This document shows positions 31,391-39,927 of a stretch of DNA of 40,204 nt, in pieces. Every line of letters starts with the position of its first letter. The stretch's first letter is position 1. The DNA lies in NCBI GenBank assembly GCA_016735235.1, contig JAERRW010000003.1, positions 1 through 40,204 of the forward strand. The letters are read 5' to 3'. Under the pieces are notes generated by a model, which worked only from the letters and a program-made list of their open reading frames with translations, was not told where the DNA came from and ran no database searches. The stretch comes from Sulfurospirillum sp. (GTDB lineage Bacteria; Campylobacterota; Campylobacteria; Campylobacterales; Sulfurospirillaceae). A program made the translations under genes and the position numbers.

Positions 31391-32573
31391 TATATTTCCT
31401 CTTAAAAATGGTCTTCAAAATGTAAAAGGATTCTTTTGTGGAGGAGTTAATGCGGGCATGAAACCTAATCTTAAAAATGATTTGGGTTTTATAAGAAGCA
31501 ATGAATTGTGCGAGGTAAGTGCGGTTTTTACTAAAAATAGATTTAAAGCTGCACCAATTTATCATTTTTTAAACTATAAAAAAAACTTTAAAACTAATTT
31601 TATCTTACTCAATTCAAAAAATGCAAATGCTATGACAGGCAAAAAAGGTGTAAAAGATATAGATAGAATTTTTTCTACCCTAAAGAAAAAATTACCTTCA
31701 CTTCATAACCCTATTATGAGTTCAACCGGAGTTATAGGATATAGACTACATGTAGATAAAATTTGTAAAGCATTCGATAAGTTTGATTTTAATTTAACTA
31801 ATTCTAATGAAACTGCTTATTCAATAATGACAACTGATAGTTTTAAAAAAGAGTTATGTCTTAAAGTAGAACTAGAAAATGGAGATTTTTTTCATATAGC
31901 TGCCATTGCAAAAGGTGCGGGCATGATAAATCCCGCTATGGCAACTATGTTGTGTTTTATACTAACAGATGCAAATATAGAAAAAACTGACATGGACAAA
32001 CTTTTAAAAAGCAGTACTAAGCAATCTTTTAATACTATTAGTGTTGATGGGGACACCTCTACGAATGATACAGTTATGTTAATTTCATCAGGCAAAAGTG
32101 GAGCTTATGATAAAATTGCTTTTAGTGAAGCCCTAAATTGTATAACAAAACATATAAGTCAAGAAATTTTAAGAGATGGCGAGGGATCAAGCAAAGTAGT
32201 CGCTTTTGAAGTTAAAAATGCACTCAATATTAAAGAAGCAAAAAAAGCAAGCAAAGCTTTAAGTAACTCTCTTTTAGTAAAAACTGCTCTTTTTGGAGAA
32301 GACCCAAATTGGGGAAGAATAGCTTCTACCATAGGAGCAAGTAAGGTTACATGTAAAGAGAAAAACTTAGTCATATCTTATGACAATATAGTAGTCTACT
32401 CAAAGCAAAAAGAAATTTTCAATAAAGAGAGAGAAGAAAAAGCATTCAAAGTAATGAAACAAGACTCGTTTAGAGTAACATGTAATTTAAATGCTGGAGA
32501 AAGTTCCTATACCTCCTATGGATGTGATTTAGGTTATGAGTATGTTAAAATAAATGCAGATTATAGAACATAA
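31383..32573 (+). CDS. argJ: Bifunctional glutamate N-acetyltransferase/amino-acid acetyltransferase
   Basis: AKGAGMINPAMATMLCF autocleavage motif, SVDGDTSTNDTVM, GEDPNWGRI. Confidence 0.96.
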   Translation: MFNIFPLKNGLQNVKGFFCGGVNAGMKPNLKNDLGFIRSNELCEVSAVFTKNRFKAAPIYHFLNYKKNFKTNFILLNSKNANAMTGKKGVKDIDRIFSTLKKKLPSLHNPIMSSTGVIGYRLHVDKICKAFDKFDFNLTNSNETAYSIMTTDSFKKELCLKVELENGDFFHIAAIAKGAGMINPAMATMLCFILTDANIEKTDMDKLLKSSTKQSFNTISVDGDTSTNDTVMLISSGKSGAYDKIAFSEALNCITKHISQEILRDGEGSSKVVAFEVKNALNIKEAKKASKALSNSLLVKTALFGEDPNWGRIASTIGASKVTCKEKNLVISYDNIVVYSKQKEIFNKEREEKAFKVMKQDSFRVTCNLNAGESSYTSYGCDLGYEYVKINADYRT

Positions 32574-32639
32574 TATTTAATTCACTTATACTTAATCAAT
32601 TTTTTGTTATAATGAATTTTATTTATAAAAGGAAAAATA

Positions 32640-32870
32640 ATGCTACACGAATATAGAGATATAATTTCTGTTATCAAAGTAAAAAATGCTCATTTTGCGA
32701 AGATTTTTGAAAAACATAATGATTTGGATCAACAAATAAAAAATATTGAAGAGGGTCGTGAACACATGGAGCAATTAGCTCTTGAGAAACTTAAAAAAGA
32801 GAAATTAAAATTAAAAGATGAAGCACATGCTATGATTATGGTATATAAAAAAGAAGAAGAATCAAAGTAA
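32640..32870 (+). CDS. YdcH/DUF465-family small protein
   Basis: MLHEYRDIISVIKVKNAHFAKIFEKHNDLDQQIKNIEEG...EKLKKEKLKLKDEAHAMI. Confidence 0.75.
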   Translation: MLHEYRDIISVIKVKNAHFAKIFEKHNDLDQQIKNIEEGREHMEQLALEKLKKEKLKLKDEAHAMIMVYKKEEESK

Positions 32871-33090
32871 AATTTTTGGGACTTTAAACCAAGCCGTGTA
32901 AACCCACCAGTTTCTTTTTAACTAATTCTCATATTTTGACATAATTGATTAAAAAATATACTAATATTTTCTAAAAAAGTTATGTTTTATCGCTTTTTGA
33001 AACTTTTAAAACCAGCTTTGATTTATCTTTAACTCTACTTGAGGTTAAATGTTAAAATTTTATTTAGAGTTTAAATTTAGAAGAATAAAT

Positions 33091-33126
33091 AAGTGCTAAA
33101 CAAATTTAAATATTTATTTAGCACTT
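33091..33126. repeat. Long inverted repeat/hairpin upstream of purL
   Basis: AAGTGCTAAACAAAT-TTAAAT-ATTTATTTAGCACTT: 15-bp arms with one mismatch, 6-nt loop. Confidence 0.85.
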
Positions 33127-33169
33127 TCTTAGTAGAATAAAATAATTTATCAAAACTAGGCTAACATTT

Positions 33170-35371
33170 ATGAAAAATTTGAAAAAAGTTTTAAAGAAAT
33201 ATAAAATTACAATGGATGAGTATAATAATATATTGAAAATTATGGGCAGAGAGCCTAATATGCTTGAAATTGGTATATTTTCGGCTATGTGGAGTGAGCA
33301 CTGTTCATACAAATCGAGTAAAAAATACTTAAATGATTTTCCCACAAAGGCTTCATGGGTTATTCAAGGACCAGGTGAGAATGCTGGTGTTATTGATATT
33401 GGCGATGGCATGGCTGCTGTATTTAAGATGGAGAGTCACAATCATCCAAGCTTTATAGAGCCTTATCAAGGTGCTGCAACTGGTGTTGGTGGAATTTTAA
33501 GAGATATATTTACAATGGGTGCCCGTCCTGTAGCAAATATGAATGCTCTTCGTTTTGGTAATATAATAGGAGATAATGACATATCTAAATATCAAAGGTA
33601 TTTGGTTCGTGGAGTTGTTGCTGGTATTGGTGATTATGGTAATTGCATGGGAGTTCCTACTATAGGCGGTGAAACATCATTTAATGAAAGTTATAATGGA
33701 AATATTCTTGTAAATGCTTTTACTCTTGGTTTGGCTAAAACAGATGAGATTTTTTATGGACTTGCTAAAGGTATTGGAAATCCTGTTGTTTATGTAGGAA
33801 GTAAAACAGGGCGTGATGGTCTTGGTGGGGCTGTTATGGCAAGCGATAGTTTTACAAAAGAGAACCAATCTTTAAGACCTACAGTTCAAGTGGGCGACCC
33901 ATTTGCTGAAAAACTTCTTCTTGAAGCTTGTTTGGAACTTTTTAAATATGATTATATAGTTGGTATTCAAGACATGGGTGCAGCTGGTCTTACTTCAAGC
34001 TCGTTTGAGATGGCAGGGCGTAGCGGTAGCGGTATGATTATGAATTTAGATCGCATTCCTGCTAGAGAGGAAAACATGCAACCTTTTGAGTTTATGTTAA
34101 GTGAATCTCAAGAACGCATGTTAATTTGTGCTAAAAAAGGCTATGAAGATAAAGTAGTAGATATTTTTAGAAAGTGGGATTTAGATGCTGAAGTTATTGG
34201 TGAAGTAACAAATACTGGAAACATGGAGCTTTTTTGGCATAAGAAAAGAGTAGCAAATATTCCTATTTTACCTATCGCAAATGAAGCTCCTATTTATGAT
34301 AGACCAGTATCTCGCCCAAAGTATTTAAATACAATAAGTTCTACTTCTATAGATGATTTAGGGAAAGTCAATAATCAAAAAGCTTTTGAAAAACTTTTTG
34401 ATTCTATTGAAATTACCGATAAATCTTGGATTTTTGAGCAATACGATTCAATGGTTCAAACAAATACAATAAAAGCACCGGGAAGTCTTGATGCTAGTGT
34501 AATTAGGGTAAAAGAGAACGGAAAAGCTTTAGCAATGAGTAGTGATTGTAATCCTCGTTATAACTATATAGATCCTAAAAATGGTGCAGCTGCAGCAGTT
34601 ATGAAAAGTGGTCGTGATGTTGCCATGAGTGGTGCAAGACCGCTAGCTATTACAGATTGTTTAAATTATGGAAATCCTGAAAATCCTGAAATTATGTGGC
34701 AGTTTGCCCAAGGATGTTATGGCATAAAAGAAGCTTGTACTAAGTTAAATACACCTGTAGTTAGTGGTAATGTATCGCTCTATAATGAAACAAACAAGGT
34801 TGGAATTTATCCAACTCCTACAATCGTAATGGTTGGATTAAATGATGATGCCAATAGAGTTCTTCCTAGTTCATTTCAAAAAGTTGGAGCTACTTTATAT
34901 CTTGTAGGAGAAACTAAGAGTGAATTTGGCGGGAGTCTCTACATGAAAGAGTTGTTTGGAAAAGTAGAAGGCAAATTACCAAGTATAGATTATGAGCAAG
35001 AGTTGGCTTTGTGGGAGTTAATAATAGAAGCAAATAAAGCTGGTATTATCAATGCTACTAAAGATGTAAATGTTGGTGGTATTGTTATAGCTTTAGCTAA
35101 AATGTGTGTAGTTAGCGGTAAAGGTGTTACATGTAGTATTGAATTGACTAGTAGTAAAGATATATTTTCGGAGAGTTTTTCTCGTGCTATTGTTGAAGTT
35201 AATAATGAGGTTGTTTTTGAAAACATGGCAAAACAATTTGGCTTGAGCATAGCTAAAATAGGTCAAGTTGAAGAGAGTGGTTTTGCATGTAACGATATAT
35301 TGGCCGATGTAGGAGCTATGAAAAATAGTTATTTCAATAAATTTCAAAAAGTTATGGAGCAAAATGGCTAA
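33170..35371 (+). CDS. purL: Phosphoribosylformylglycinamidine synthase II (PurL)
   Basis: [68 protein letters not shown]. Confidence 0.97.
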
Positions 35372-36272: not shown

Positions 36273-36557
36273 ATGAGGCTTTTAAAAAAAGAGGTTTTGG
36301 TACTTAAAAAAAAATTACATTCTCTTTCTAGTGAAGCTAAAATTTATCTATTTGGTTCTAGAGTAGACGACAATAAAAAGGGTGGCGATATTGATCTTTT
36401 AATTGTGTCTAAACAATTAACCAAGAAAGAGTTAAGATATTTAAGAATTGATTTTTTTAATCATTTTGGAGAACAAAAAATGGATATTTTACTTGATGAT
36501 GGCTCTTTTGATGATATTTTTAATAAACTAATTTTTCAAAAAGCTATATTGTTATGA
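36273..36557 (+). CDS. MNT-domain minimal nucleotidyltransferase (MntA-like antitoxin)
   Basis: IYLFGSRVDDNKKGGDIDLLIVS (GSx9DxD) and a later MDILLDD; stop overlaps the next ATG as ATGA. Confidence 0.85.
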   Translation: MRLLKKEVLVLKKKLHSLSSEAKIYLFGSRVDDNKKGGDIDLLIVSKQLTKKELRYLRIDFFNHFGEQKMDILLDDGSFDDIFNKLIFQKAILL

Positions 36558-36997
36558 TATACGAAAAACTAAAACAAGATAATATCTTGCTAAAAAAACA
36601 ACTATCGTGGTTAAAAATTTCAACATGTCAATGTAAAAAAATAACTATAAAAAAAGAGTACACAGTTGAAGAGTTTGGTAATTTTGAGACTTTATGTAGC
36701 AGATATAGCAGAAGTATGGATTTTTTAATTAGAAAAATATTTAGAACATTAGATGAATTTGAATTTGAAAATCAAGGAACACTTGTAGATGTTATTAATA
36801 ATGCACACAAGAGGGAGTTGTTTGAAGATATTGAAATGTTAAGAGTTATGAAGGATTTACGAAATACAATTGTTCATGAATATATTGAAGATGAATTAAT
36901 AGATGTATTTGAAGAGGTTTTAAAATATAGTGAGATTTTAATTGAAATAATCAATAACACACTTTACTATATTAAAAATATAATTTCAAAATTTTAG
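36554..36997 (+). CDS. HEPN-domain HepT-like toxin
   Basis: MKDLRNTIVHEYIED contains Rx4HxY typical of HepT; paired with the MNT gene by a 4-nt overlap. Confidence 0.8.
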   Translation: MIYEKLKQDNILLKKQLSWLKISTCQCKKITIKKEYTVEEFGNFETLCSRYSRSMDFLIRKIFRTLDEFEFENQGTLVDVINNAHKRELFEDIEMLRVMKDLRNTIVHEYIEDELIDVFEEVLKYSEILIEIINNTLYYIKNIISKF

Positions 36998-37026: not shown

Positions 37027-37785
37027 TTGAGTTGGATAGTTGTATTTATTGTAATTTTTTTATTTTACATGTTAACAAAAGGCTATAAAACTGCTGATTA
37101 TCAACATATACATGTGAATAGAAAACAGAAACTAAAAGGTGATTTAGCAGATCATGAAGCAGGGCTTTTAGTGGCTCTTATGGCAAAAGTTGCAAAAGCT
37201 GATGGAAAAGTGTGTGAGCTTGAAGCAGAACTTCTTAGTCTTACTTTTACAGATATATCAAAAGTTTTTGAAGATAATAAAACTATAAGAGAAAAGTTAA
37301 AAGATATATATAAAAAAGAGATAAAAAGTTTTGACAATACTATTATGGTGTCAAAAAAATATTTTAAACTCACTAGTAGAGACTACAATAAGCGTTTAGG
37401 AGTAATGGAATACCTTCTAAATTTGGCTTTTATTGATGGTGATTTTTCAAAAACAGAGTTTATGATATGTGAAGATATTGCAAATACTTTAGAGATAACA
37501 GGAGCAGATTTTGAGAGTTTAATAGATAGTTTTGAGCAGTTTTATGCACAAAAGAGAGAAGAATCTATTATGACTTTAAAAAAAGCTTATGAAATTTTAG
37601 GATTAAATGAAAATGTAGAGTTTTCAATAGTTAAAAAAGAGTATAGAAAACTTGTAAGAAAATATCACCCTGATATATTGATGGGGCAGGGCAAAGAGCA
37701 GTCCATAATTGACAGAGCAACAAAAAAACTTCAAGAGATAAACGAAGCCTATGAGATTATAAAAAAAACATATGCAAAAATATAG
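37027..37785 (+). CDS. djlA: DjlA-like membrane-anchored TerB/DnaJ co-chaperone (TTG start)
   Basis: N-terminal TM, TerB-like helical region, C-terminal J domain with KYHPDI (HPD motif). Confidence 0.85.
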   Translation: MSWIVVFIVIFLFYMLTKGYKTADYQHIHVNRKQKLKGDLADHEAGLLVALMAKVAKADGKVCELEAELLSLTFTDISKVFEDNKTIREKLKDIYKKEIKSFDNTIMVSKKYFKLTSRDYNKRLGVMEYLLNLAFIDGDFSKTEFMICEDIANTLEITGADFESLIDSFEQFYAQKREESIMTLKKAYEILGLNENVEFSIVKKEYRKLVRKYHPDILMGQGKEQSIIDRATKKLQEINEAYEIIKKTYAKI

Positions 37786-38794
37786 TGTTATTGAGTTATT
37801 TACAGGTGCGGGTGGTTTGGCCTTAGGATTAGAGCAAGCAGGATTTAATACTAAAATTGTAGTTGATATTAACAAATGGGCAACTAAAACCCTATTAAAA
37901 AATAGACCCAATTGGAATGTCGTGCATGAAGATATAACAAAAATTTCAAAAAATGGAATAAAAAATATTTAAAAGACAATTAAGAAATAGATTTATTATC
38001 AGGTGGTTATCTTTGTCAATCATTTAGTTATGCTGGCAAAAAACTAGGGCTTGAAGATACGAGAGGAACACTCTTTTCGGATTTTGCAAAAATATTAAAA
38101 GAAGTTAAACCAAAAATATTTTTAGCTGAAAATGTAAAAGGCTTGACAACTCACGACAAAGGAAAAACATTACAAGTAATGTTGGATGTATTTGAAGAAG
38201 TTGGTTACCATATAAATTATAAAGTTTTAAATTCATTGGATTATGGTGTTGCTCAAAAAAGACAAAGAATATTAATTATAGGAACACGAAAAGATATAAA
38301 AGAAAAAATTGGTGTAGATTATGCATTTCCTAAACCATATAAAAAACAATTAGTTTTAAAAGATATATTAAAGAATGTTCCATATTCTCCATGTGCTATA
38401 TAATGATAAGAAAAAAGAAGTTTTAAAACATGTAAAACCAGGTGGTTGCTGGAGAGATTTACCTGATGATATAGCTAGAGAATATATGAAAACTACTTAT
38501 TTTATGGGTGGAGGAAGAACTGGAATAGCAAGAAGATTATCTTGGAGTGAACCAGGTTTAACAGTATTATGCACACCAGCACAAAAACAAACAGAAAGAT
38601 GTCATCCAGATGAATTAAGATCATTTAGTGTTAGAGAAAATGCTAGAATTCAATCATTTCCAGATGATTGGATTTTTGAGGGTTCAATAGCAGAACAGTA
38701 TAAACAAATTGGTAATGCTGTTCCTGTAAATATGGCAAAAGAAGTGGGATTATCAATAATAAAATATTTAAATAAATTAAAAGAGGTAAAAAAA
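37772..38794 (+). pseudogene. Degraded C5-cytosine DNA methyltransferase of Eco47II/Sau96I-type R-M
   Basis: VIELFTGAGGLALGLEQAGF (motif I), DLLSGGYLCQSFSYAGKKLGLEDTRGTLF (motif IV altered), IFLAENVKGL (motif VI), QRILIIGTR (VIII), QYKQIGNAVPVNMA (X), spread over frames 2, 1 and 2 with an in-frame TAA at 37981. Confidence 0.88.
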
Positions 38795-39556
38795 ATGAGA
38801 GAATATAATTTAAGTTTTATAAGTGATGTTAATCTATTTAATCATGTTAAAGAAACAATAGAAAAATATAGATTTAAAATTAATCTGAAAGAGTTTAACA
38901 AAAATTTAATTGACCCAATTAAATTAACATTTGATTCTAAAGTTTATGGAAAAACTATTGAGGAAATTATTGACTTAGAAACAGTAAGACAAATGGATAA
39001 ATCAAATAGTAATAATATTGAATATTTTCAACAAAATATCTTTAAATATATTAAAAAGAAAAATACACAAAAAACAAATTGGAGTGTACCGAAACAAGGA
39101 TTTGATATTATCAATGATGTTGATAAAATTTATGTTGAAATTAAAAATAAACATAATACTATGAATTCATCTTCATCACAGAAAACATTCATGAGAATGC
39201 AAAGCAAACTATTACAAGATAGAAAAAACAGATGTTATTTAGTTGAAGTTATAGCTAAAAATAGTCAAGATATTATTTGGCAAGTTTCATTAGATGGTGA
39301 ACCAACATCAAATGAAAATATTAGAAGAGTTTCTGTTGATAAATTTTATGAATTAGTAACAGGAGAAAAAGAAGCTTTTAAACAATTAGTAGAAGCTTTA
39401 CCGCAAGTTATGGATGATGTACTAGAAGAAATACAACAAAATGGTATTGAAAATACTGTATTTGAAGAACTGGAGGGAATTGATGAAAATATATTAAAAA
39501 GTTTATATTTATTGTCATTTCAAAGATATGAAGGTTTTGAAAAACTAGATATATAA
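38795..39556 (+). CDS. Eco47II/Sau96I-family restriction endonuclease
   Basis: MREYNLSFISDVNLFNHVKETIEKY...KQGFDIINDVDKIYVEIKNKHNTMNSSSSQKTFMRMQSKLLQ; PD-(D/E)xK-like D...ExK, no internal stop; AAGAGG SD before ATG 38795. Confidence 0.85.
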   Translation: MREYNLSFISDVNLFNHVKETIEKYRFKINLKEFNKNLIDPIKLTFDSKVYGKTIEEIIDLETVRQMDKSNSNNIEYFQQNIFKYIKKKNTQKTNWSVPKQGFDIINDVDKIYVEIKNKHNTMNSSSSQKTFMRMQSKLLQDRKNRCYLVEVIAKNSQDIIWQVSLDGEPTSNENIRRVSVDKFYELVTGEKEAFKQLVEALPQVMDDVLEEIQQNGIENTVFEELEGIDENILKSLYLLSFQRYEGFEKLDI

Positions 39557-39576: not shown

Positions 39577-39927
39577 TTTTTAGATAATTTTATATCACAT
39601 TTTCCATTTAAGATTCGTAAGATTCTAACCGATAATGGAGCTCAATTTAGCTATCGTTTAACTCAATTTAGACACCCTTGGACAAATGGTTTAGTAGAAA
39701 GAATAAATAGGACTATAAAAGAAGCTACAGTAAAGATCTATTTTTATGAGACTCTAAAGGAGCTAAAAGAGCATCTTATGATATGGCTTTTGATGTATAA
39801 CTTTGAAAAAAAGTTAAAAAGCTTGGAGTATGAAAGTCCATATGATATAATCATAAAAGAATTTGATATTAAACCATCTAACTTTTATATTAATCCAACC
39901 CATAAGAAGGTGGGACTTAACACTTAA
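39577..39927 (+). mobile_element. IS481-family transposase C-terminal remnant
   Basis: FPFKIRKILTDNGAQFSYRLTQFRHPWTNGLVERINRTIKEATVKIYFYETLKELKEHLMIWLLMYNFEKKLKSLEYESPYDII...PTHKKVGLNT*; no N-terminal half, and an apparent internal deletion between QFSY and RLTQF. Confidence 0.85.

Follow-up and report, generated by a model that had tools for sequence, protein, structure and literature searches.

Restriction-modification genes are regarded as addictive, since a cell that loses the methylase but retains the endonuclease dies. An earlier note on the stretch of DNA analyzed here (the window, 40,204 nucleotides of a Sulfurospirillum sp. genome, contig JAERRW010000003.1 of assembly GCA_016735235.1) had drawn attention to an Eco47II-like restriction endonuclease (R) that appeared intact beside a methyltransferase (M) carrying several inactivating lesions. 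The question that this locus raises is how such an arrangement can be found in a living cell. The explanation we favor, with a probability of roughly 0.7, is that an M-R gene of the Eco47II/Sau96I kind (GGNCC), with both halves in one frame, was acquired horizontally and has decayed to a relic in which M has been destroyed and R is most likely inactive or silent.

Lesions in the methyltransferase half

Three-frame translation divides the C5 methyltransferase (37772-38794; the features of the locus and its TerB-DnaJ and transposase neighbors are all on the forward strand) into three frame-shifted pieces. The first (37772-37969) covers the motif I region, matches PF00145 with 50.6 bits, and carries A11T at a conserved column; the frame changes in an A-rich stretch near 37958-37966, in agreement with the earlier note, which had placed a poly-A frame change near 37958-37964. 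The note had also claimed an in-frame TAA nonsense codon (37981-37983) and, near 38395, another change of frame; the same translation recovered both, the latter in an AT repeat at 38395-38402. The second piece (37984-38394; PF00145, 165 bits) keeps the ENV motif, and its catalytic PCQ has become LCQ (LSGGYLCQSFS, codon 38011-38013), a proline that is present in 78 of 78 relatives. The third piece (38402-38794) contains the C-terminal motifs, and the conserved columns substituted across M are A11T, P85L, and P289S, the last of these in piece 3. This piece shares the frame of R with no stop between them, and a single ORF at 38375-39556 covers both. The intact cognate methyltransferase of a functional type II restriction-modification system is missing from the window.

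These lesions could be errors of sequencing or assembly, or the product of a strain mixture, with a working pair present in the cells. The assembly behind the window (contig C29 in our numbering) is a draft of 1.51 Mb in 106 contigs, and two of the lesions fall in simple-sequence stretches, one A-rich and the other an AT repeat. However, ORFs of at least 120 amino acids cover 94% of bases 1-37771 and no split gene was seen in these 37.7 kb, whereas a single kilobase of M contains three disabling lesions, so the lesions do not come from general sequence quality. The TAA codon, LCQ, P289S, and A11T are not homopolymer-type errors, and a completeness of 99.95% with contamination of 0.08 argues against errors and mixture alike, making this explanation quite improbable. 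The clustering of the lesions together with the conserved-column substitutions is a pseudogene signature, neither chance nor generally poor sequence. Phase variation of M by slippage was considered because both frame changes fall within simple A/T tracts, but slippage in one tract would leave the other frame change, the TAA, and LCQ in place and so could not restore M. It was rejected on the strength of the several lesions and fixed substitutions, and its probability is close to nil.

An endonuclease in an open frame

The endonuclease half (38795-39556, 253 amino acids) is uninterrupted, as had been claimed, and the assignment to Eco47II and GGNCC also stands. The region 38795-39553 matches positions 1-201 of the 202 in PF09553 with 267 bits (E = 1.1e-79, cut-off 25.9). 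NCBIfam holds no model for R, and a search of solved structures by R sequence returned nothing useful, but a fold search with the predicted structure (mean pLDDT 90.5) gave EcoO109I as the best solved match (E = 1.4e-3, probability 1.00). The family name and this fold match together suggest that R would recognize GGNCC.

The catalytic D...ExK residues of R are kept (D104, E115, and K117). The other invariant residues are kept with the sole exception of G76E, at a position that is glycine in 80 of 80 relatives. Since a change private to one sequence, at a column invariant in all others, occurs in 9 of the 81 sequences, G76E is only suggestive as an inactivating change. In AvaII, a related enzyme, the metal-binding E123 lies on a helix of the catalytic core, 24 residues ahead of D147 (PMC7337904). 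Judged by residue spacing, E123 and D147 would correspond to Q80 and D104 of R, and residue 76 would then be one helical turn from Q80, on a helix predicted at residues 55-84.

The open frame could mean that R has lost cutting and been kept for another role, for example DNA binding, and the dN/dS of 0.15 for R on the window branch could be read the same way. That value, however, mostly reflects time before the decay, M being at 0.08 on the same branch; R is no more constrained than M by this measure, and the decay is too recent for a distinction between them. Between its lesions M retains the look of a constrained gene; its decay is therefore recent, and an open R frame does not show that R is in use. 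When three lesions are placed at random over M (1023 nt) and R (759 nt), the chance that all of the disabling lesions fall in M is about 0.19, so an open R needs no selection. Apart from the remains of M and a piece of a transposase gene, R also has no new context at this locus. Repurposing, which the earlier note had offered as one way out, found no positive support and is highly improbable.

A GGNCC endonuclease without protection of its sites would be expected to kill the cell. The window contains 16 GGNCC sites with two overlapping pairs counted ("at least 13" had been noted), and a 225-kb sample of ten stretches contains 85, which extrapolates to about 570 genome-wide. In this sample GGNCC has no depletion like that of GGCC, GCGC, and CCWGG, and avoidance of GGNCC as a sign of past restriction is weak and not clear. 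The genome has seven C5 loci in all, including five other intact C5 methylases whose neighbors are EcoRII-C-like, SacI-like, truncated NgoPII, and HinP1I enzymes and one unassigned enzyme. None of the five is paired with a recognizable GGNCC or GGWCC enzyme, and no other GGNCC methylase was recognized in the genome. With the sites not clearly avoided and no such methylase recognized, an active and unprotected R is implausible, and the earlier reasoning holds, by which R is either inactive or silent or has its sites protected. Protection would mean that R is made and active while another methylase covers its sites. Candidates are the five intact C5 and several N4/N6-type methylases, among them an unassigned methylase on contig C7 and a HaeIII-like methylase on contig C83 that would overlap only the GGSCC sites. 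Against this, the assigned methylases sit with the four named kinds of enzyme, GGSCC makes up only 19 of the 85 sampled GGNCC sites, and R carries G76E. Protection by another methylase, also raised in the earlier note, gained no positive support either, and we consider it unlikely.

The C83 locus (L003) combines its intact HaeIII-like methylase with an NgoPII endonuclease that is missing roughly the first 120 model positions, and shows the usual direction of decay, with R damaged and M kept. In the genome sample GGCC is much rarer than expected, with an observed/expected ratio of 0.30-0.35. Further N4/N6-type methylases occur on contigs C24, C61, C40, C27, C91, and C5, and the restriction-modification load is unusually rich for 1.5 Mb.

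Insertion site and relatives in a single frame

The M-R locus follows a TerB-DnaJ host gene (37027-37785), whose 3' end is the left edge of a foreign insertion and whose similarity to congeners stops at about 37768. In five congeners TerB-DnaJ is followed by a purH-like gene, named from its sequence without a model search, whereas in the window it is followed by the M-R relic, then by an abutting transposase fragment with an rve_3 integrase core (39610-39927; PF13683, 41 bits), and then by a different gene at the contig end. R is present in only 1 of 44 genomes of the family, which together with purH at this site in congeners identifies the locus as a horizontally acquired foreign insertion with rearrangement. 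Upstream of the host gene, at 36273-36997, a small nucleotidyltransferase (PF01909) overlaps a 147-amino acid partner ORF in an arrangement that resembles an MNT-HEPN type pair.

A scan with one genome per species yielded 80 related loci, with R identities to that of the window of up to 85%. An uninterrupted M of the same family lies beside R in 78 of these 80; in the other two M is cut by a contig end (L025) or replaced by a different C5 methyltransferase (L046). A C5 methyltransferase adjoins R in all 91 loci sorted by gene order, a set that includes a few loci fetched twice. Since 78 of 80 relatives keep M, the window is exceptional among them in having lost it. In four loci an M-R-M order occurs, with a second, HaeIII-like methylase directly 3' of the Eco47II-type endonuclease (L023:4747-5808, L032:4745-5815, L047:4745-5812, and L016:4784-5359, the last of these truncated).

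Several relatives contain M and R as one ORF of about 600 amino acids: L010 (the same as L116), L011, L014 (the same as L118), L032, L034, and L117. Both Pfam domains were confirmed on the fused ORFs of L011, L032, and L117, and since that of L117 is on a single-contig genome of 2.8 Mb, the fusion is no binning artifact. This joined form is slightly unusual. The fused state is scattered on the tree, with at least 4 changes forced by well-supported branches, a pattern that fits easy gain and loss where stop and start codons abut, as in taaATG in L013 versus tatATG in L014. In the window the junction is in frame and the M half is broken, so it does not contain a single-ORF, type IIC-like M-R enzyme. 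The nearest R relatives include the unfused L012, and loss of the M-R stop could in principle have come after the onset of decay. We nevertheless infer that the ancestral gene gave rise to a fusion protein, and the R ORF is best regarded as the 3' half of a fused gene that has since been broken. The description of R as an intact endonuclease is thus right as to its open frame but not as to a separate gene, since close relatives have one M-R ORF. In one further fused gene (L128) it is the R half that deletions have broken, with M intact, as is usual for the decay of such systems.

A GAGGT Shine-Dalgarno-like sequence lies just upstream of the internal ATG at 38795 (38783-38797 in all), and similar GAGG-type signals are found in the fused relatives. 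From this sequence signal, separate synthesis of R starting at ATG 38795 appears possible.

A second relic of this kind, of HpaII type, is present in the same genome (C45, locus L007, about 32530-34130). Its endonuclease is full length, and its methylase is without most of the C-terminal two thirds. In the intact relative L137, HpaII methylase and endonuclease form one ORF of 673 amino acids, and the relic agrees with L137 in its junction sequence. Two relics of fused genes, both with M broken and R open, agree with the proposal that a cell can survive the loss of M when the genes are fused; with just two cases this agreement is only suggestive.

Proposed decay of a one-frame gene and comparison with known systems

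In the scenario of a decaying one-frame gene, the C5 methyltransferase and endonuclease would presumably first have come to share one uninterrupted reading frame, after which the two frame changes, the TAA codon, and the substitution of the catalytic proline destroyed the M half. Lesions in the M half of a fused gene would stop translation into R as well, so that the cell would not face a lone endonuclease, and initiation at ATG 38795 would be the only remaining route to R. An R started there would probably have reduced or no activity owing to G76E on the predicted catalytic-core helix, and we infer that R is inactive; its frame would still be open simply for want of a disabling lesion so far. 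The decay itself is ordinary. What changes is the view of survival after loss of M, since the M lesions would also halt read-through into R, and a one-frame M-R gene could be lost safely in a single step. On a broader level, it is conceivable, though we hold it well short of even odds, that Campylobacterota repeatedly form natural single-chain C5 M-R enzymes of ordinary palindromic type II systems (Eco47II and HpaII kinds) when the stop codon of M is lost, and that M-first decay is thereby survivable and leaves open R halves, as in the window and C45, because a lesion in the M half also removes the endonuclease.

The closest known systems are Eco47II and Sau96I (GGNCC, m5C), which likewise have a PF09553 endonuclease and an adjacent C5 methyltransferase arranged head to tail. 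The window differs from them in its broken M and in the shared frame of M and R without a stop. EcoO109I (RGGNCCY), besides being the best fold match, has a related core target, and EcoO109I and AvaII (GGWCC) have PD-(D/E)XK residues at spacings comparable to those of R (PMC7337904), although sequence identity to R is 7% and TM-scores are only about 0.5.

Our literature search found little on solitary endonucleases or natural C5 M-R fusions; REBASE was outside its scope, and we do not claim that such fusions are unreported. The 12 natural single-chain enzymes proven as of 2011 all had m6A methylases, and Sau96I appeared in a list of head-to-tail pairs proposed as fusion candidates (PMC3039593). 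In the same study, RM.Eco29kI was engineered as a single-chain C5 methylase-endonuclease (PMC3039593). Like the fused relatives described here, it combines a C5 methylase and a palindrome-cutting endonuclease in one ORF, but in RM.Eco29kI R precedes M and the fusion was produced by mutation, whereas here M precedes R and the fusion is natural, and broken in the window. Judged by sequence, the fused relatives appear to be natural counterparts to RM.Eco29kI, and the relic in the window shows how a fused M-R gene can fall apart. A decaying mobile system is also known from HpyAXII of Helicobacter pylori (PabI-type), which has likewise been inactivated by frameshifts, nonsense changes, and deletions (PMC10273834). 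There the R gene decays and M is kept, while in the window the direction is reversed, with M broken and R open.
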